Positions 3,496 to 44,734 of a stretch of 51,281 nucleotides of DNA are shown one piece after another. How positions within the stretch are numbered: the first letter of the stretch is position 1; the number at the start of each line of letters is the position of its first letter. Made by a program: the position numbers and the translations under genes. The stretch is from Acidobacteriota bacterium (lineage in GTDB: Bacteria > Acidobacteriota > Terriglobia > UBA7540): the NCBI GenBank assembly GCA_902812365.1, contig CADDZC010000020.1, positions 1 through 51,281 of the forward strand, in the 5' to 3' direction. Below the pieces are notes generated by a model. That model saw only the letters and a list, made by a program, of their open reading frames with translations. It was not told where the DNA came from and made no database searches.

Positions 3496-3567
3496 CCATC
3501 AAGGCGGAAGGGCGGGTATCCCGGCGCGGTACGAGCGCCCCTGCCCTTCCCCAGCCTGACTCGTGCC

Positions 3568-4884
3568 ATGCTGACTGCGGCCGTCAGAACTTTCGAGCGC
3601 ATCGCCATCGGCGACTCAATTCCCTCGCTGGTAAAGTGGGGAAAGCGCGTCCCGACCGCCCTGGCCGACCGGTTGCAGCGTCAGGCCTTTCGCGAAGTCG
3701 TTCTCTATACGGCGCGGCGACAGCCCTTTTTCGCCCGCCGGCTTCGGGAGCGTGGCATCGACCCCTCGCGGGTGCGGACTCCGGCTGATTTAGGCGACGT
3801 CTACACGAGCGCCGAAGACCTTCTTCGGTGGCCGGCGGAAGACTTTCTGTGCCGCGCGCCCCAGGCCGTCTTCGAGAGCACCGGCACCTCCGGCGCTCCC
3901 AAGCGCGTCTATTTCGGCTACGACGAACTGGAGGCTTCGGCGCGTCACGAAGCGGCGGCTCTGTATCAGAACGGCGTCCGGCCGGGTGACCGGGTGGTGT
4001 GCGCGTTTGACGGCGGTTATTGGATCAGCAGTTGGGTCACCTTTCGCGCCTGCCAGCAGATCGGAGTGTTCTGTTCGGCGATCGGCAAGCCGCATCCGCG
4101 CGAGCTGTACCAGCGCCTGGCCGTGTACCGATACAACGTCATCATCGCCGATCCGACCTGGCTGGTCAGTTTGAGCGAGATCGCGGCGGCCAGAGGCACC
4201 GTTCCCGTCAAACTTATCATGGCCGCCGGCGACCGCATGAGCGGCGTCTATCGCGACTACGTGCAGAAGGTCTGGAACTCGCCGGTGGTGCTGGGTTACG
4301 GGTCGACGGAGGCGGGGGGCGGCGTCGGCATGGAATGCCGGGCGCGCTGCGGATATCACCTTGACGAATTCAACTTTCTGTTTGAGATCGTTGAACCCGA
4401 CGGCGACGGGTATGGCGAGCTGGTGATGACAACTCTCGCTCGCCGCACCCAGCCGCTGATCCGCTACCGGATGCGGGACGTGACCCGATGGATCGAGGGC
4501 AGATGCGCCTGCGGCGTCCGGCTGCGGCGGATCGCTCCAATCAAAGGCCGGCGCGATGAGATGGTGGTGATGGGCGCCGGCAACCTGCACCCCGAGATGT
4601 TCGAGCGCATCCTGCACGGCGTCGAAGGCATTGCGGATCACTGGCAGGTAGCCGTCCGGCAGGAAGGCGTGCGGGACATCCTGGAGTTCCGGCTCGAACC
4701 GACCGACGGCATCCGGCTGCCGGCGGTGCAAGAAGCCGTTTTCCGGAATCTCGAAAACCTCTATCCTGAAGTGTGGGCCAACCACCAGTGCGGGATGTAC
4801 CGGCTCGAGTTTCGCTTGCTGGCGCCGGGCACGCTCGAGCAAGGCAGAAAACCCCGGCGGTTGGTGGATGAGCGGCAGGGCTGA
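3568..4884 (+). CDS. PaaK/CapK-like adenylate-forming enzyme (phenylacetate-CoA ligase family)
   Basis: A 438-residue member of the phenylacetate-CoA ligase/CapK branch of the AMP-forming superfamily. The AMP-binding loop is STGTSGAPK (104-112), followed by YGSTEAG (244-250) and YRMRDVT (300-306), then a small C-terminal domain. These enzymes activate a carboxylic acid, often aromatic, as acyl-AMP and pass it to CoA or a carrier thiol. Cys257, Cys261, His264, Cys313 and Cys315 form a cluster that could bind a metal, as in some PaaK-like proteins. It lies 72 bases after the glycosyltransferase and has a weak ribosome site. Loading a starter acid onto the adjacent ACP is plausible; the substrate is unknown. 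Confidence 0.88.
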   Translation: MLTAAVRTFERIAIGDSIPSLVKWGKRVPTALADRLQRQAFREVVLYTARRQPFFARRLRERGIDPSRVRTPADLGDVYTSAEDLLRWPAEDFLCRAPQAVFESTGTSGAPKRVYFGYDELEASARHEAAALYQNGVRPGDRVVCAFDGGYWISSWVTFRACQQIGVFCSAIGKPHPRELYQRLAVYRYNVIIADPTWLVSLSEIAAARGTVPVKLIMAAGDRMSGVYRDYVQKVWNSPVVLGYGSTEAGGGVGMECRARCGYHLDEFNFLFEIVEPDGDGYGELVMTTLARRTQPLIRYRMRDVTRWIEGRCACGVRLRRIAPIKGRRDEMVVMGAGNLHPEMFERILHGVEGIADHWQVAVRQEGVRDILEFRLEPTDGIRLPAVQEAVFRNLENLYPEVWANHQCGMYRLEFRLLAPGTLEQGRKPRRLVDERQG

Positions 4885-36788: not shown

Positions 36789-37147
36789 GAGCACCCGTCC
36801 GCGGGGGATCGATCGGCGAGCGTGGGGTTGGCGGCCCGGTGGCTTTCGATCCTCGGCCGTCGATCTTATCAGTTAATGCGTGTGAAGTCAACACCTTTTT
36901 GCATAACTCGGTTCCCGCCTGGGGACAGAAAACTAGCCTACAGACGAAAGCTCTTGCGAACCGCCCGCCTTGCGCCTTCATAAAGTACTTGATTTCAATG
37001 ATTTATAACATCCACGCGGAGCCGCTTCCGGATCGCCCCGCGTCCGGGGTCACGGCTACATAGCTAGTCCAGAGACTCCCGCGTCTCCACCCGGGGCGGG
37101 GTCGTACTGGAGGGAGTGGCGCGGAAAAAACGGCGGGCCGGCGCCCG
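36789..37147. other. 359-bp intergenic region upstream of the sensor-kinase block
   Basis: This region should hold the promoter of the leftward signalling block and the end of the upstream amidohydrolase transcript. It has an AT-richer core (about 36860-37010) with no convincing -35/-10 pair and no complete gene. Short open frames here have no domain or ribosome site. No tRNA is evident. Confidence 0.5.
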
Positions 37148-38479
37148 TTACGGGAGCCCGTACTGCTTCCTATAAAACTCGTAAAGTTCCGTCTGATGGT
37201 TCGCCAGATCGATAACCTTACCCCCAATCAGCTCCGTCACGACGTGGGTCTTGACGCGAAAAGGCTCTCCGTCCAGCACAATCAGGTTGGCATCTTTGCC
37301 GACGTCAAGGCTTCCCAAGCGTTTTTCGACGCCGAAAAAGCGCGCCGGATTGAGGGTCACGGCCTCGATGGCCGCTTCCGTCGGAAGGCCGTAGGACATC
37401 GCGTACTCGACCTCGAAGGGCAGATCCCGCACCTCATTGTCCGCGGCCGTCTGGATGGCGACGCGCACCCCGGCCTGGTAGAGACGCGCGGCGTTGTCCA
37501 GGCGGACGTCCAGGGATTCCATCCGCTCGGGCTCTTCCAAAATCGGCCCCACAATCACCGGAATGCGGCGGGCGGCCAACTCGTCCGCCAGCCGCCAGGC
37601 GCCAGCGGCCCCGGACAGAATCAGCCGCAGATGGAATTCGCCGCCGAGGCGCAGGGCCATTTCGATGTCGCTGACGCGGTCGGCGCGAACGACCACGGGA
37701 ATCTGCCCGCCGAGGGCGGCGAGCAGCGATTCCATCTTCAGGTCCTTGGCGGGCGGTGCGGAGGGCTTGGCCTCACCGGCGTCCTCGGACCCGCTCTTGG
37801 GCGCCGCCCACTTGTGGGCGTACGCTTCCTGCTCTGCCTGATAGTGCTGAGCGGCCAGAAACTCCTGGCGCAGCATGGCCATCTGGCCCATGCGGGTTTC
37901 CGGAGCCTTGCCCTTGGACCCGTAAACGGACTTGCTCGGTTCGCCCAGATTGATCTGCAATGCCGCCGGCGACCTTACCACCAGGGCGTCGACGGTGGCG
38001 CCGTCCAGTTGGATGACCGCACTCTGGCCGGCGATCAGATTACCCGCCGCCGGAGTCGATACCGCGTTCGTGATCCCGGCGGCTCGCGTGACGCGGATAT
38101 TCTCGCTTTGCGGGTTGAGCGCGTCGATCGCACGCAGCTCCGGGTGGAGCGGATCGGAGTATTCGGTGGAATCGACCGTGACCGGAATGCCGTTGCTCTC
38201 CACCAAGCCCAGTTGGTCGCCGGCGTCAAACATTCCGGGCATCACCACCTTGCCCCGAGCGTCGATCACTTTGGCCGCGGCGGGCACGCGGACCTTCGAA
38301 CCGACCTCGGCAATCTTGCCGTCTTCGACGAGCACCGTGCCGTTCTCAATCACGCCGTGCGTCACGGTGATGACGCGGCCCCCGGTGATGGCGATGACGC
38401 TTTGGGCAGACACCAGAGCCGGCGCGGCCGGCAGCGCGGCGGCCATCAAGACGACGGTCGGCAGGCGTAAGCGGATCAT
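37148..38479 (-). CDS. Exported amidohydrolase-like protein lacking its metal ligands (probable pseudoenzyme)
   Basis: A 443-residue protein with a signal peptide (MIRLRLPTVVLMAAALPAAPALVSA) and the amidohydrolase frame: beta-sandwich segments at both ends (VIAITGGRVITVTHG; DVGKDANLIVLDGEPF) around a TIM-barrel-like core. Compared with its intact neighbour (38596-39900), the first metal motif HSH is replaced by GDQ (87-89), the next His by Arg265, the paired His by Gly290-Ala291, and the SLHTD region by AIQTA. Metal-dependent hydrolysis is therefore unlikely. The reading frame is intact and it has a good ribosome site (AAGGAG), so it is not a decaying gene. It may be a regulatory or structural partner of the neighbour. 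Confidence 0.85.
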   Translation of the reverse strand: MIRLRLPTVVLMAAALPAAPALVSAQSVIAITGGRVITVTHGVIENGTVLVEDGKIAEVGSKVRVPAAAKVIDARGKVVMPGMFDAGDQLGLVESNGIPVTVDSTEYSDPLHPELRAIDALNPQSENIRVTRAAGITNAVSTPAAGNLIAGQSAVIQLDGATVDALVVRSPAALQINLGEPSKSVYGSKGKAPETRMGQMAMLRQEFLAAQHYQAEQEAYAHKWAAPKSGSEDAGEAKPSAPPAKDLKMESLLAALGGQIPVVVRADRVSDIEMALRLGGEFHLRLILSGAAGAWRLADELAARRIPVIVGPILEEPERMESLDVRLDNAARLYQAGVRVAIQTAADNEVRDLPFEVEYAMSYGLPTEAAIEAVTLNPARFFGVEKRLGSLDVGKDANLIVLDGEPFRVKTHVVTELIGGKVIDLANHQTELYEFYRKQYGLP

Positions 38480-38595
38480 CAGCTAGCTCCTTTTCGCTTC
38501 GGGCCCTGCGCCTCGGGCGGTGCGCGAGCCCATTTCATCGCAGCCCGGGCTGCCGTGCGGCTTCCCTCGCCGGGCGCCCGACCGGAGCGACCCGG

Positions 38596-39900
38596 TCAGG
38601 GAACGAGCGTGGCGGGCCGCCCCTTCCAGGGCAGAAACCCGTCTTTGACGGTATAGACCAGCTTACCGTCGATAAAAACCCGGTCGGCCTTCGAAGTCAG
38701 CTCGAGCGGATAGCCTGTCCAGAGCGTGAGGTCAGCGTCCTTGCCGGGATCGATGCTGCCCACCCATCGATCAATTCCCAGAATTTTGGCGGGATTGATC
38801 GTGACTGTCTCGAGCGCCGCCTCGTCCGGCATTCCATAATGGTTAATGATGGCCGCCTGCTCGATATAATTTCGCTCCTCGATCACGGGATTATCCGTGT
38901 GCAAGCTGACGGTGACACCCTCCTTCCACAAAATATAAGCGTTCTCCGGGATGGCGTCCCAGGCTTCCACCTTGTAGCCCCAGGCATCGGCGAAAGTGAC
39001 CACGCCGATGTGTCGCCGGGCGATTTCCGGCGCGATCATATAAGCGTCGAGAGCGTGGTGAAGGGCGGCGATGGGAAAGTGGAACTCATCGGCAATGCGG
39101 AAGAGCGCGTCAAAGTGGTTCACCTGATAAGAATGGATGTTGAGCCTTACTTTTCCAGCCAGGACCTGGGCCAGGGCTTCGAGCTGCAAATTGCGCTCCG
39201 GCGGCGCGCCCTTTTTGCCCCCTTCTTCCCAGGCTTTCCACTTGGCTTCATAATTTTGGGCGTCGTAGAGCCGCTGCCGGACGATGGCCGCTTCGCCCAT
39301 GAGCGTCTCCGGAGCTTGTCCCTTGGCCCCATATGCCCGCTTCGGATTCTCTCCCCAGGCCCATTTCATGCTCGGCGGGGCTTCGGGAAACTTGATCTCG
39401 CTCAGACTTTGACCGCCGTTGAGCTTGATAATCGTCGCCCAGCCGCCGATATTGTTACCGCTGCCGGGCAGCACCTGGACGATGGCGACGCCGGCCCCGG
39501 CCGCGCGGGCGATCTCGGGATCATCAAAGTTGATCGAATCCTCGGAGCGGACCTGCGCCTCAATGTCGCCGGTCATCTCGTTGCCGTCGGAGTTGGCGGG
39601 AACTCCGGGCAGGGAATAATCTCCCAGGTGGGAGTGGGGATCAATCAGGCCCGGCAGCACGTATTCTCCCCGGGCGTCGATCACCTCGGCGCCCGCCGGC
39701 ACCGGCAGGTCTGGGCCGACGGCTTCGATCTTCCCCTTTCGCAACACCACCGTCCCGTTTTCAATGTTGCCGTGGCTCATGGTCAGCATCGTGGCGCCCC
39801 GGATGACGATCGGGCGCTGCTGGCCACGGCTGCTGCCCGCCGCCAGCCCCAGGCTGGCCGCCAGCATCGCGCCGGCAAACAGAAGCTTTTGTCGGATCAT
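38596..39900 (-). CDS. Exported metal-dependent amidohydrolase (imidazolonepropionase/prolidase-like)
   Basis: A 434-residue protein with a signal peptide (MIRQKLLFAGAMLAASLGLAAGSS). The metal site is complete: HSH (89-91) in PGLIDPHSHLG, His256 in NIHSYQ, His281/282 in ALHHALDAY, and Asp336 in SLHTDNP. The C-terminal motif SIDPGKDADLTLW is typical of the imidazolonepropionase-like/Xaa-Pro dipeptidase-like amidohydrolases. These cleave cyclic or peptide amides outside the cytoplasm; the substrate is unknown. ATG 39900 follows GGAGG. It lies 116 bases upstream of the metal-ligand-lacking paralogue and 46 bases downstream of the DUF4340 gene. Confidence 0.92.
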   Translation of the reverse strand: MIRQKLLFAGAMLAASLGLAAGSSRGQQRPIVIRGATMLTMSHGNIENGTVVLRKGKIEAVGPDLPVPAGAEVIDARGEYVLPGLIDPHSHLGDYSLPGVPANSDGNEMTGDIEAQVRSEDSINFDDPEIARAAGAGVAIVQVLPGSGNNIGGWATIIKLNGGQSLSEIKFPEAPPSMKWAWGENPKRAYGAKGQAPETLMGEAAIVRQRLYDAQNYEAKWKAWEEGGKKGAPPERNLQLEALAQVLAGKVRLNIHSYQVNHFDALFRIADEFHFPIAALHHALDAYMIAPEIARRHIGVVTFADAWGYKVEAWDAIPENAYILWKEGVTVSLHTDNPVIEERNYIEQAAIINHYGMPDEAALETVTINPAKILGIDRWVGSIDPGKDADLTLWTGYPLELTSKADRVFIDGKLVYTVKDGFLPWKGRPATLVP

Positions 39901-39946: not shown

Positions 39947-41278
39947 TTACAGGCTGGCCAGCGCCTTCGTCAGGTCGTCGAACGTCGACTTCAGAATCTC
40001 GCCGGGCAGCGCGTCCGTCGACCGGCGCGCGTAATAATGATCGTCGACAATGCCCACCTCAACGGTTTCGGTCTTGTTGTCACTCGAGGTCACCGTGAAC
40101 GTGTAAGCCGGCTTGGCCAGCCCGTAAGCCGCCAGGCTCGCGGAATGGGCCGGGGGAAACGAACTGGCGCGCAAGTCGCCCAAATCCATGAGAAAGGCTT
40201 CCATCTTGTCATTGGGCTCGGTCTTGTTGCCGGGGGCGGTTTGCTTCCACTGATCCTTCTGCTTTTCGAAGACCTGACGTCCTCGTGGGGTGTGAACTTC
40301 AATTCGAGTCGAATTGAGCGGCGATTGGGAGAAAAAGTCTTTGTCGCGGAGGTCGGCGGCGTCCTTATCAAACTGGGTGAAGACGTCGGAGCCCAAGGTG
40401 AAGATAGGCGCCAGCGCGGAATTCATCGCGTCGTAGTGATCCCCCTCTTTCTTTCCCAGGATCACGGATTGGGTTCCATCCGCCCCGGTCACTTGGATCG
40501 TCAGCGTGGGATGCTTCAACCCGTAGGAAGCCGCGTCCTTTTTCTGCTCGGCCAGAATGCTCTGCATTGTCAGCCCTTGCAGTTGGCTCACCAGCCCGTC
40601 CACCGCGTAATGATCGGCGCGGACGGCGGGCGGCAAATTGAGCTCCCAGGTGCCTTCGGGGTTTCTGACCAGCGTCCAGTGCTTGCCCTTGGCCGTCACC
40701 GTGATCTGCTGGATGCGGTTGGTGTCGAGCGTGAAGGCTCGTTTGTCCCGCAAGTCGAATTCGGTCTTCTCCAGCGATGATTTCAAGTACTCATCGAGCG
40801 TCACCACCCGAGGATTGCCCTCCACCAGGGCGTAGAGCCCGTTGCCGGTGGGGGTTTCATCGCCCAGCCGCACGGTCAGTTCTGACGGATTCGAAGCGGC
40901 GGACACATGGATCGTCGTCGCCGGCGGGTCCAGGCCGAAGTCCTTCAGGCTGGAAGGATGAGCGTCCACCACTTCGCCCACCGTCGCCGTCGTCAGACTG
41001 GAGAGAAGAGAGGTGACCTGCGATTGATCGGCGGCCAGCTTGTCGGGCGCGACGATGCTCCAGGTCTTGCCTTGGCGTTCACAGGTGAACTCCTTGCCGT
41101 CGCGCGGCTTGATTGAAAAGGCCTGGATTTGATCGGCGTTGACGGGCAGAAATTTTTCGGCGGATTTCGATTCGGTTTTGGCGGCTTCGCGGCTCTTGCG
41201 CCGGCCGTAATACGTGAACGACGCCCACACGGCCAGCAAGATGAGCAGGGCGCCCAGGGTTCGGCCGTACCGCTTCAT
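39947..41278 (-). CDS. DUF4340 membrane-anchored protein of a Gld-like ABC system
   Basis: A 443-residue protein with a single N-terminal membrane anchor (TLGALLILLAVWASFTYYG). Two or three repeats of the DUF4340 pattern follow (for example FTCERQGKTWSIVAPDKLAADQSQVTSLLSSL, quoted here only in outline, and WTLVRNPEGTWELNLPP). DUF4340 proteins occur beside GldG-type ABC auxiliary proteins, and their role is unknown. ATG 41278 overlaps the upstream stop (ATGA) and follows GGAG, so translation is coupled to the GldG-like gene; a GTG at 41290 is an alternative. It is probably an extracytoplasmic, membrane-tethered part of the ABC complex. Confidence 0.88.
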   Translation of the reverse strand: MKRYGRTLGALLILLAVWASFTYYGRRKSREAAKTESKSAEKFLPVNADQIQAFSIKPRDGKEFTCERQGKTWSIVAPDKLAADQSQVTSLLSSLTTATVGEVVDAHPSSLKDFGLDPPATTIHVSAASNPSELTVRLGDETPTGNGLYALVEGNPRVVTLDEYLKSSLEKTEFDLRDKRAFTLDTNRIQQITVTAKGKHWTLVRNPEGTWELNLPPAVRADHYAVDGLVSQLQGLTMQSILAEQKKDAASYGLKHPTLTIQVTGADGTQSVILGKKEGDHYDAMNSALAPIFTLGSDVFTQFDKDAADLRDKDFFSQSPLNSTRIEVHTPRGRQVFEKQKDQWKQTAPGNKTEPNDKMEAFLMDLGDLRASSFPPAHSASLAAYGLAKPAYTFTVTSSDNKTETVEVGIVDDHYYARRSTDALPGEILKSTFDDLTKALASL

Positions 41279-42645
41279 CGCCGGCTCCACCAGACCAGGA
41301 TTCCCGCCATGATGATGAGAAGGGGTACCGCTGCCACCTTGATCAGCAGTCCGGTCATCTGCCGGGCGGTCAGGTTCAGGTGCTGTTGCTCGGGGGGCTT
41401 GGGGCGGATGGAAATGAGATTCTCGTTGGAAGAGAGCCAGTCCACGATATTCATGAAGAGGTCGCGATTGGCTTGAAATCCCAGGTAAGCGTTGGCGGCC
41501 AGCAGCGAGGTGCCGAGCGCCACGAAGCGCCCCTCCGGCTTGCTATCGGCCGAGTTGGTCAGCTGGCCCGAGACGGCCACCGTGAGGGGGCCCTTGAGGT
41601 CCTTGCCGGGGCGGTACGAAACCTCGCGCATGCTGGGGTTGAAATTGGCCACGTCAAAACTCTCGGGCGTGGTTTCACACAGCGATTCCACGGTGACGTC
41701 GGGCTTGGGGGTTTTGCCGACCTCAAAGGAGCGCGTCAGGGGGAACAACGTCGTGAAGCGCTGGAGAGGCTCCACGATGGGGCTGGTGCCGTACTTCATG
41801 ATCAGCGGCATGCTGGGGGTGGTGCCGAACATTTGAGCGATGGGGTTCTGGTCAATCACCAGGTCGTTGCGGGCCGTCACGTTGTAGCCGGCGAGCAGGC
41901 CGGCGAGGTTGGGCAGGCTGACGCCCGGATCGAGCATGAACAGCACGCGGCCGCCGCCGGCCAGATATTTCTTGATCGCGTCCACTTCCTGCGGCAGATA
42001 GTCCTTTTGCGGTCCGGCGATAATCAGCAGCGCGCAATCGGCCGGAATTTCCGGCTTGGCCAGCAAGTTGACCGTCTTCACCTGGTCGTTCTCGTTTTCG
42101 AGCGCCGTCTTCACGTTCGAGTACCCGTGGGCGTCGGAACCGTTGGGGTCGCGCTCGCCGTGTCCCTCGGCGAAATAGACCACGCTCGGGCCTTTCAACA
42201 CCGAAATCAGGGCGTTGGTGATGCCCTCCTCGGTGGTTGTCTTGGCCTCGTCGTGGCGGGCACCGGCGGCCACGATCACCGTCCCGTAACTGTGAACGCC
42301 GAACTGTTTGGCCAGACCCGGGTCGCGGTTGGGATCGATGTATTCGACCTTGACGCGGGGCGTGGCGGCGGCGTATTGCTCCAGAAGGTCCCGGCGCGCC
42401 CGAAAGTGCTGCGCTTGATCGAAGACGTAAAGCGTGACGTTGGTGTTGAGCGTCTTCAGGATTTTACGGCTCTGGGCCGAGAGGCTGTATTTCTGGTTGG
42501 GCGTCAAATCCCACTGGCGAGTGTAACGGCTGGCGTAATAGTTGACGGCCACGGCGATGGCGATGCCGATGAGGGTGTAGAGGGCCAGGTTGGCGCCCCG
42601 CAGAACCTTCAGCCGGCTGGAGGATGGGTGATCCGGGTTGGCCAT
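41275..42645 (-). CDS. GldG-like ABC transporter auxiliary protein
   Basis: A 456-residue protein with an N-terminal membrane segment (LALYTLIGIAIAVAVNYYASR) and a C-terminal one (VAAVPLLIIMAGILVWWSRR) around a large extracytoplasmic domain of the ABC_transp_aux/GldG type (KYSLSAQSRKILKTL, YIDPNRDP, YFAEGHGERD, LLIIAGPQKDYLPQEV). GldG pairs with the permease GldF and ATPase GldA; in Bacteroidota that complex is linked to gliding, while elsewhere its role is unknown. ATG 42645 follows AGGGAGGG; an overlapping GTG (42651) would give two more residues. It is coupled to both neighbours by overlap or near overlap. Confidence 0.9.
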   Translation of the reverse strand: MANPDHPSSSRLKVLRGANLALYTLIGIAIAVAVNYYASRYTRQWDLTPNQKYSLSAQSRKILKTLNTNVTLYVFDQAQHFRARRDLLEQYAAATPRVKVEYIDPNRDPGLAKQFGVHSYGTVIVAAGARHDEAKTTTEEGITNALISVLKGPSVVYFAEGHGERDPNGSDAHGYSNVKTALENENDQVKTVNLLAKPEIPADCALLIIAGPQKDYLPQEVDAIKKYLAGGGRVLFMLDPGVSLPNLAGLLAGYNVTARNDLVIDQNPIAQMFGTTPSMPLIMKYGTSPIVEPLQRFTTLFPLTRSFEVGKTPKPDVTVESLCETTPESFDVANFNPSMREVSYRPGKDLKGPLTVAVSGQLTNSADSKPEGRFVALGTSLLAANAYLGFQANRDLFMNIVDWLSSNENLISIRPKPPEQQHLNLTARQMTGLLIKVAAVPLLIIMAGILVWWSRR

Positions 42646-42647
42646 GG

Positions 42648-43424
42648 TCACGCCCTCCCTTTGAGAGCTTCGACGGAACGGGCGGTGAGAAAGATTCCCA
42701 GCCCGATTACCGAGAGGTAGTAGACGAGGTCGCTCAGGTCGATGACGCCTTTGGCGAAGTTGTCAAAATGGGTCGTCAAGGCCATAAAGGACATGGCGCG
42801 TCCCACCGTGCCGTTGGAAAAGGCCGAGACCCAGTCAAAGACGTACAGCAGCAGGAAGACGGCGAAGGAGACAATGCCGGCGATGATCTGGTTTTTCGTG
42901 AAGGTGGAAATCCACATGCCCAGGGAGAGCAGCGCTCCACCGTAAAGCAAAAATCCCAGGGCATTGGCCAGGAGCGGTTTGGCCGCCGGATTTCCGTAAA
43001 GGAATAAGAGCCCGATGTCGAGAAATGCCAGAACCATCAGAAGAACATAAAGGCACAAGGCGCCGAGAAATTTGCCGAGGATAATCTGCATGTCGGTCAG
43101 GGGCGAGGTCAGGAGCAGTTCGATGGTGCCCGAACGCTTTTCTTCCGCATAGAGCCGCATGGTGATCAACGGCACGAGCAGCAGCAAAACCACGGTGAGA
43201 ATGCCTTCGAACAGCGGGCGGATGACGTTCTCATTGATGTTCATGGGCGGCGCGCCCATGCCCCCCATCTCCAGCATGCGGAAGGTCTCAATGACGTAGG
43301 CCGCGGTCAGGTTGTAAAAAAAGAAGCCGCACAGGACGGCAAAAAGCGCCATCACCAGATAGGCGATGGGAGAATGAAAGTAGGTTCGCAGCTCTTTGCC
43401 GGCGATCGTCACCACGTTGCGCAT
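42648..43424 (-). CDS. ABC-2 type permease, GldF-like
   Basis: A 258-residue polytopic protein with six hydrophobic segments. The family signature EEKRSGTIELLLTSPLTD lies near residues 103-120 after the second segment, followed by ILGKFLGALCLYVLLMVLAF. It forms the membrane channel of an ABC-2 exporter energised by the ATPase encoded 54 bases upstream and working with the GldG-like protein. A Met/Pro-rich extracytoplasmic loop (MLEMGGMGAPPMNINENV) lies between segments 1 and 2. The transported substrate is unknown. Confidence 0.92.
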   Translation of the reverse strand: MRNVVTIAGKELRTYFHSPIAYLVMALFAVLCGFFFYNLTAAYVIETFRMLEMGGMGAPPMNINENVIRPLFEGILTVVLLLLVPLITMRLYAEEKRSGTIELLLTSPLTDMQIILGKFLGALCLYVLLMVLAFLDIGLLFLYGNPAAKPLLANALGFLLYGGALLSLGMWISTFTKNQIIAGIVSFAVFLLLYVFDWVSAFSNGTVGRAMSFMALTTHFDNFAKGVIDLSDLVYYLSVIGLGIFLTARSVEALKGRA

Positions 43425-43478
43425 CAGAATGCCTCTCGATGACCGGGAACGGGGAAGCCCGAACCGGGCGCCGCGTGC

Positions 43479-44435
43479 TCAGGTGGCGGCCGGCTCTTCA
43501 CCCAGGTCCTTGGTCGTGAGCTTGAGGAAAATCTCTTCCAGGCTCAAGCCGCTCGTCTTCAGCTCGAACAATTTCCACTGCGATTCCACCACGGCGCGCG
43601 CCACTTCCGCCCGCACGTCTTTATCCTTGGCGGCGTGCACCTCGAACGTCACCCGGCCGTCGCTCGCTTCGTGCCGCTCGACCAGGTTGACGCCCTCAAT
43701 CCGCTCGATCTTCTCTTTCACTTCTTTTTCCGGCCCCTCCACCGTCACCAGGACCGTTTCGAAGCCTTGCAGCCGCCGCGTCAATTCCTCCGGAGTCCCG
43801 ACGGCGGCGATCTTGCCCCCGTTGATGACCACCACCCGCTCGCAGGTTTTCGAGACTTCGGGCAGGATGTGAGTGCTGAGAATGACGGTGTGCTGTCCGG
43901 CCAGGCTCTTGATGAGTTGACGGGTTTCGATGATCTGCTTGGGATCGAGGCCGGCGGTCGGCTCGTCGAGCACGAGGACGTCCGGGTTGTGGATGAGCGC
44001 CTGCGCCAGGCCAACACGCTGGCGGTAGCCCTTCGACAGCTTGCCGATCTGCCGGCGGCGAACGTCACTCACGGCGCAGGTCTCACTCACCGCATCCATC
44101 CGCTTTTTCAGTTCCGCTCCCGCCACGCCCTTGATGCGGCCCGCGAACGCCAGATATTCGTCCACGGTCATGTCGGGGTAGACGGGGGGCAACTCGGGCA
44201 GATACCCGGTGCGCCGTTTGGCTTCGAGGGGCTGCTCGACCACGTCAAAGCCCGCCACTCGGACGGTGCCGGCGGTCGGCGGCAGATAGCCCGTGATCAC
44301 CCGCATGGTGGTCGTCTTGCCGGCGCCGTTCGGGCCGAGAAAGCCGAGCACTTCACCCTTGCGCACTTGAAAAGTCACGTCGGAAACCGCCACCGTGGGG
44401 CCGTAGCGCTTCGTTAATCCCTCCACTTCGATCAT
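43479..44435 (-). CDS. ABC transporter ATP-binding protein, GldA-like
   Basis: A 318-residue ATPase. Walker A GPNGAGKTT (34-42), a Q-loop near TGYLPELPPVYPDMTV, signature LSKGYRQRVGLAQAL, Walker B VLVLDEPTAGLD and the switch His in LSTHILPEV are all intact. A C-terminal extension of about 100 residues (ETVLVTVEGPEKEVKEKI onwards), found in GldA/CcmA-like ATPases, probably contacts the permease. ATG 44435 has GGAGG about 11 bases upstream. It is the first gene of a leftward operon with permease, GldG-like and DUF4340 genes, possibly continuing into the amidohydrolases. Confidence 0.93.
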   Translation of the reverse strand: MIEVEGLTKRYGPTVAVSDVTFQVRKGEVLGFLGPNGAGKTTTMRVITGYLPPTAGTVRVAGFDVVEQPLEAKRRTGYLPELPPVYPDMTVDEYLAFAGRIKGVAGAELKKRMDAVSETCAVSDVRRRQIGKLSKGYRQRVGLAQALIHNPDVLVLDEPTAGLDPKQIIETRQLIKSLAGQHTVILSTHILPEVSKTCERVVVINGGKIAAVGTPEELTRRLQGFETVLVTVEGPEKEVKEKIERIEGVNLVERHEASDGRVTFEVHAAKDKDVRAEVARAVVESQWKLFELKTSGLSLEEIFLKLTTKDLGEEPAAT

Positions 44436-44734
44436 GACGGTCGTTTCCTCCGCGAGCAGACGGGCAGCGGGCGGGACGTTCAAGTTCACTTGATGTGAAG
44501 CCGCCACCGGGCTTTCGCCCTGCGGGACGCCTTCGTGCCGGCGTCACCCATCCTGCCGACCCGCCGGCCTCCCGGCTCCCCTGGCGCGTCTCGCAAGCTG
44601 CCAAAGCTAATTAGACATATCAAAAACCCGTTCGAGTTGCCAAGAGCAAAATCCTCCGCCGCAAGCGCGGCCGAAGCCCCAACCGGCGGCGAAGTTGTGA
44701 GATAATCAGGCGCTCGTGCCGGCGGGAGGATGGC
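44436..44734. other. Divergent control region (299 bp)
   Basis: This gap separates the leftward ABC operon from the rightward SDR gene and should contain both promoters. The segment around 44600-44660 is the only AT-rich part. No gene, strong dyad or RNA is evident. Confidence 0.45.

Follow-up and report, generated by a model that had tools for sequence, protein, structure and literature searches.

The window analysed here, a stretch of 51,281 nucleotides from an Acidobacteriota bacterium, contains two adjacent paralogous genes on the minus strand. The upstream gene, A (38596..39900), encodes an exported-type amidohydrolase of 434 amino acids, and the downstream gene, B (37148..38479), encodes a paralogue of 443 amino acids that is classed as a putative pseudoenzyme based on alignment, structural modelling and dN/dS (see below). 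The two open reading frames are separated by 116 nt and their products are 34% identical over the full length (BLASTP, E 3e-74). Pfam amidohydrolase models match both proteins, with PF01979 above the cut-off in each case. B is preceded by the ribosome binding site AAGGAG (38487..38492, minus strand), located 7 nt before its ATG. A terminator-like hairpin with a T-run follows directly past the stop codon of B (37134..37147, minus strand); this is a consensus match only, in a region where such matches are fewer than expected by chance, and no terminator-like hairpin was found in the gap between A and B. Both proteins start with a segment that by eye resembles a Sec signal peptide, which suggests that both are probably exported.

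Directly upstream of the pair, and co-directional with it, genes for a DUF4340 protein, a GldG-like protein, an ABC-2 permease and an ABC ATPase occupy positions 39947-44507 on the minus strand. The gene neighbours of B comprise A, the DUF4340, GldG-like and ABC transporter genes and also genes for a response regulator and a histidine kinase. The nearest relative likewise has DUF4340 and GldG-like genes ahead of its pair, and among the loci compared this context is common to the window and that relative only. Apart from generic kinases, ABC ATPases and near-identical relatives, no neighbour family recurred at the loci that carry the pair. Since conservation of the gene neighbourhood does not extend past the nearest relative, the pair itself is the unit, and an attempt to deduce the substrate from gene neighbours was dropped because no neighbour family recurs informatively with it.

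A multiple alignment of 127 family domains assigned the residues H89, H91, K179, H256, H282 and D336 (HHKHHD) to the metal site of A; they are called ligands based on the known amidohydrolase signature (HxH, Lys, His, His, Asp) and not on a metal-bound structure. At the same columns B carries G87, Q89, Q175, R265, G290 and A345 (GQQRGA), and thus none of the six. The HxH motif of A, His89-Ser90-His91 (39628..39636, all coordinates in this paragraph on the minus strand), corresponds to Gly87-Asp88-Gln89 in B (38213..38221). Gln175 (37955..37957) stands for the invariant lysine (Lys179 of A, 39364-39366), Arg265 (37685..37687) for the beta-5 histidine (His256 of A, 39133-39135), Gly290 (37610..37612) for the beta-6 histidine (His282 of A, 39055-39057) and Ala345 (37445..37447) for the beta-8 aspartate (Asp336 of A, 38893-38895). 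The first-pass annotation, which had been made from the letters of this stretch, had listed GDQ in place of HSH, Arg265, a Gly-Ala in place of the histidine pair and the absence of the final aspartate, all of which the alignment confirmed. Its statement that every metal ligand is lost holds as well, but its account had overlooked the invariant barrel lysine K179. As judged from these columns, A has the ligand set of a catalytic metal-dependent amidohydrolase and B does not.

B retains 21 of the 27 non-ligand residues that are invariant among A copies compared to 0 of the 6 ligands (hypergeometric p about 8e-4), and the 21 retained anchors include P81, G82, G135, G151, R204, Y213, T375, G389 and K395. 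The best PDB match of both proteins is 3OOQ (E 3.6e-72 for A, 4.7e-61 for B), which we take to be Thermotoga maritima locus TM0814. An AlphaFold2 model of B calculated without templates reached a pLDDT of 86 and a pTM of 0.85 and superposed on the Thermotoga structure over 384 residues with an rmsd of 1.5 Å (Z 55.7); prolidase-like, carboxypeptidase-like and imidazolonepropionase-like enzymes followed as next fold relatives, with Z of about 23-26. By its modelled fold, a TIM barrel with a flanking beta domain, B belongs to the amidohydrolase superfamily, and the fold is predicted to be kept. Fold neighbours suggest that A may act on a dipeptide or on a cyclic or N-acyl amide. 3OOQ is the closest solved relative of both proteins and shares their fold including a helical insert, which in B spans residues 196-225; its HSH, H, H and D residues and its lysine align with those of A. 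It differs from the pair in that its crystal entry contains a single kind of subunit, an intact enzyme, and no pseudo-subunit. Because of the 21 anchor residues and the superposition over 384 residues, no shifted alignment restores the ligands of B; a corrected alignment that places ligands elsewhere in the protein, named beforehand as a possible refutation, was not found.

Across the family, most of the former ligand positions are poorly conserved in the degenerate copies, hereafter termed b. In a reduced alignment set with 33 columns in which at least 95% of the intact copies share one residue, the degenerate copies keep the six ligand columns in 10-19% of cases and the other 27 columns in a median of about 88%. 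The ligand columns rank at the 97th-99th conservation percentile in the intact set; among the degenerate copies, five of them drop to the 11th-27th percentile, and the sixth (H282) is now mostly glycine. Within the b clade the column of H89 falls on the 11th percentile, H91 on the 14th, N107 on the 3rd, S147 on the 8th and N185 on the 1st. The B protein of the nearest relative is 69% identical and reads GQHHAS instead of GQQRGA, differing at four of the six positions. The replacing residues vary freely between species, and up to three ligands persist in a small number of b copies. A replacement active site shared among B proteins was considered and rejected, as the residues at the old ligand positions are not conserved.

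B is nevertheless under purifying selection, as had been supposed when the paralogue was first described. In comparison with the nearest relative, a member of the same family as the genome of the window (contig QHZK01000441, locus L037), dN/dS was 0.166 for B (dN 0.20, dS 1.22) and 0.077 for A, the latter at a high dS of 1.51. Over 127 locus pairs, restricted to dS values of 0.05-1.6 and with high dS in many of them, the median was 0.211 for B and 0.172 for A, and B exceeded A in 115 of the 127. B is constrained, slightly less than A. Loss of the catalytic residues together with purifying selection on the sequence is what characterises a pseudoenzyme, and B can be assigned to this category on sequence grounds. 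The earlier observation that B has kept fold, signal peptide, reading frame and ribosome binding site agrees with the similarity of its model to 3OOQ, the Sec-like segment, the open frame and the AAGGAG motif. Two peculiarities of the nearest relative were noted: L037 is seemingly the same 7086-base contig as G228:C48 (L176), and its gene A shifts frame near residue 344-356, at about 3300 in L037 (matches 3784-4764 and 3561-3797, which lie in different frames), which is likely an assembly error and possibly a real frameshift.

Copies of this family were detected at E 1e-20 in 97 of 199 Acidobacteriota genomes, and all 97 carry at least two; the enzyme with its degenerate twin is present in about half of the species sampled from this phylum. 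In the window's own family the distribution is patchy, with matches in 6 of 39 further genomes. The loci compared comprise regions from most of the matching Acidobacteriota genomes plus 15 from other records, including Bacteroidota, Aliifodinibius, Bacillota and Thermotogae; they are not independent samples, as some are near relatives. An intact copy adjoins at least one degenerate copy in 119 loci, always on the same strand, in the arrangements A-b (58), b-A-b (58), A-b-b (1), A-b-A-b-A-b (1) and b-A (1; L045). Among about 309 domains, 125 keep all six ligands and 184 retain at most three, with no domain at five or four (three in 6, two in 15, one in 53 and none in 110); this gap between six and three was not produced by the classification rule. 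The expectation that the pair is conserved across Acidobacteriota with the same losses was therefore borne out with regard to the pair, which is widespread, but not with regard to the losses, since the replacements differ by species and some b copies retain up to three ligands.

Intact copies occur alone in three distant genomes, L042 (Bacillota), L043 (Thermotogae) and L051 (unclassified), and in L183 at a contig end; the three distant genomes indicate that A-type enzymes can exist without B. Six loci that seemed to carry b only (L039, L079, L100, L162, L173 and L179) were discarded, as they lie at contig ends or have their A on another contig. The assemblies G204 and G202 are incomplete, so that the presence of A cannot be judged in them; wherever the assembly permits checking, an intact A accompanies the degenerate copy nearly everywhere. 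One isolated b of the upstream type without an adjacent A was observed in L180 (G208:C28, 3641-4873); a separate contig of this genome carries an A-b pair, with its A near the contig start.

In several lineages the two domains are fused into a single open reading frame, either as A-b (for example L065, L067, L069, L090, L103 and L126) or as b-A (for example L044, L046, L134, L146 and L149), and L168 encodes b-A-b in one frame of 1419 amino acids. Mapped onto a tree of 123 A domains, the A-b fusion requires four changes (gains or losses), and so does b-A. Most linkers are rich in proline, acidic or made up of a short inserted segment, and no signal-peptide-like stretch was found in the fusion linkers examined. 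Such repeated fusion favours a physical association over independent functions, and its occurrence in both orders is the best evidence presented here that A and b associate. The b-A fusion L046 (Bacteroidota), modelled as one chain, gave a low-confidence prediction (pLDDT 63, pTM 0.48) that carries no information on the interface. Some b-A fusions from genomes of different groups (L044, L046-L049, L102, L131, L149 and L159) contain about 130-160 extra residues between the domains, and this segment is partly beta in the low-confidence L046 model.

A tree of 124 domains separates intact and degenerate copies almost fully. With the active-site columns masked, a topology with all degenerate copies in one clade had a p-AU of 0.78 and a likelihood above that of a free quick search. 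One ancient duplication with loss of the ligands, followed by drift, is the simplest reading; a single clade is compatible with these data rather than proven by them. In the Bacillota locus L045 (1112-3432) the degenerate copy (IQMSNT) comes first and the intact one second, and this copy stood apart from the main b clade in the first tree, on a branch longer than 2.5 that makes its placement unsure. An independent loss in L045 was set aside as a conclusion, as a single clade is not rejected once the active-site columns are masked; the locus possibly represents a second loss. In L078 (G006:C4, 2739-10355), six members lie in tandem as A-b-A-b-A-b with the last pair fused. Its three pairs fall into three different clades, and each A and its own b occupy corresponding clades, which indicates that pairs are inherited as units.

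We consider it probable that B is a pseudoenzyme derived from one ancient duplication of an amidohydrolase of the 3OOQ type and since kept as an obligate non-catalytic subunit of A. The partner role proposed in the first-pass annotation is supported by the wide distribution of the pair, the constraint on B, the near-constant position of A beside b and the repeated fusions, from which we infer a physical A-B complex and a dependence of A on B. B would substitute for one of the subunits of an ancestral complex that was presumably homo-oligomeric. A would contribute the metal site, and B, released from catalysis, would contribute fold stability and a neighbouring surface, which may be part of the substrate-binding rim or a conserved helical insert. 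In many relatives a second degenerate copy lies upstream, which gives the order b-A-b. More tentatively, and with rather less than even confidence, it may be speculated that these loci represent a widespread, hitherto unrecognised class of amidohydrolases built as hetero-oligomers, with a single catalytic subunit whose active site is completed or controlled, from across the interface, by one dedicated pseudo-subunit (A-b) or by two (b-A-b).

That A and b are adjacent and share their phylogeny could also stem from co-regulation without any contact between the proteins. B might be an independent exported binder or scavenger that passes its substrate to A without a stable complex, a role which its predicted intact fold would allow. 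We regard this as rather unlikely, as some of the lowest conservation in the b clade is seen in and around the former active site, which is a poor fit for a conserved pocket for one ligand, and fusions in both orders point to assembly. Another idea is that B catalyses a new, metal-independent reaction in the same barrel. The amidohydrolase superfamily does include metal-independent members such as the lactonase LigI, but a new active site should be conserved, whereas no replacement set is, even between B and its nearest relative; new catalysis is unlikely for this reason, and we give it little weight.

Adjacency and purifying selection would also fit with B as a chaperone for folding or export that A needs only transiently. 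The permanent fusions in several lineages suggest a lasting subunit instead and leave this role improbable. That B is a decaying duplicate with a frame still open by chance could be argued from its faster evolution compared to A and from the free drift of its ligand positions, but its low dN/dS, open frame, ribosome binding site and signal-peptide-like segment speak against decay, as does the fact that the class has persisted among very deeply diverged Acidobacteriota and Bacteroidota. Selection and the age of the class make this reading very unlikely, and we hold it to be barely credible.

The favoured reading, a non-catalytic subunit beside an active sister, has counterparts in other families. 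In the mitochondrial processing peptidase (MPP), a zinc-less homologous subunit contributes residues needed for function, and MPP and bacterial M16B pairs resemble A and B in combining homologous active and zinc-ligand-free subunits (PMC11266112). They are M16 peptidases of an unrelated fold and family; as in their arrangement, the inactive copy is accompanied by an active one at the 119 loci described above. The pseudo-dihydroorotase of Pseudomonas aeruginosa is an inactive homologue of an amidohydrolase-superfamily enzyme that is required for aspartate transcarbamoylase (ATCase) activity (PMC7053772). It is like B in being an inactive chain needed for the activity of a partner; this partner is an unrelated enzyme rather than an active paralogue, and B is not encoded with ATCase but among the neighbours listed above.

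Collapsin response mediator proteins (CRMPs), or dihydropyrimidinase-related proteins, are non-catalytic members of the amidohydrolase superfamily and showed weak similarity to B at the N-terminus when the PDB was searched. Unlike B, they are eukaryotic and not paired with an adjacent active sister. While enzyme and pseudoenzyme pairs are known in other families, a search of open-licence PubMed Central papers, which does not prove novelty, returned no description of an amidohydrolase pseudoenzyme pair, and no report of such a pair formed by sister amidohydrolases or of one with comparable age and frequency among bacteria. Databases match the proposed class only as ordinary amidohydrolases; as b copies are recognised by the general amidohydrolase models despite lacking the metal ligands, catalysis should not be assigned to them. 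The family provides a natural series that comprises relatives with intact copies only, separate pairs, triples and fusions of either order, along with b copies that retain between zero and three ligands, and this makes the change from a homo-oligomer to an enzyme with a dedicated pseudo-subunit directly testable.
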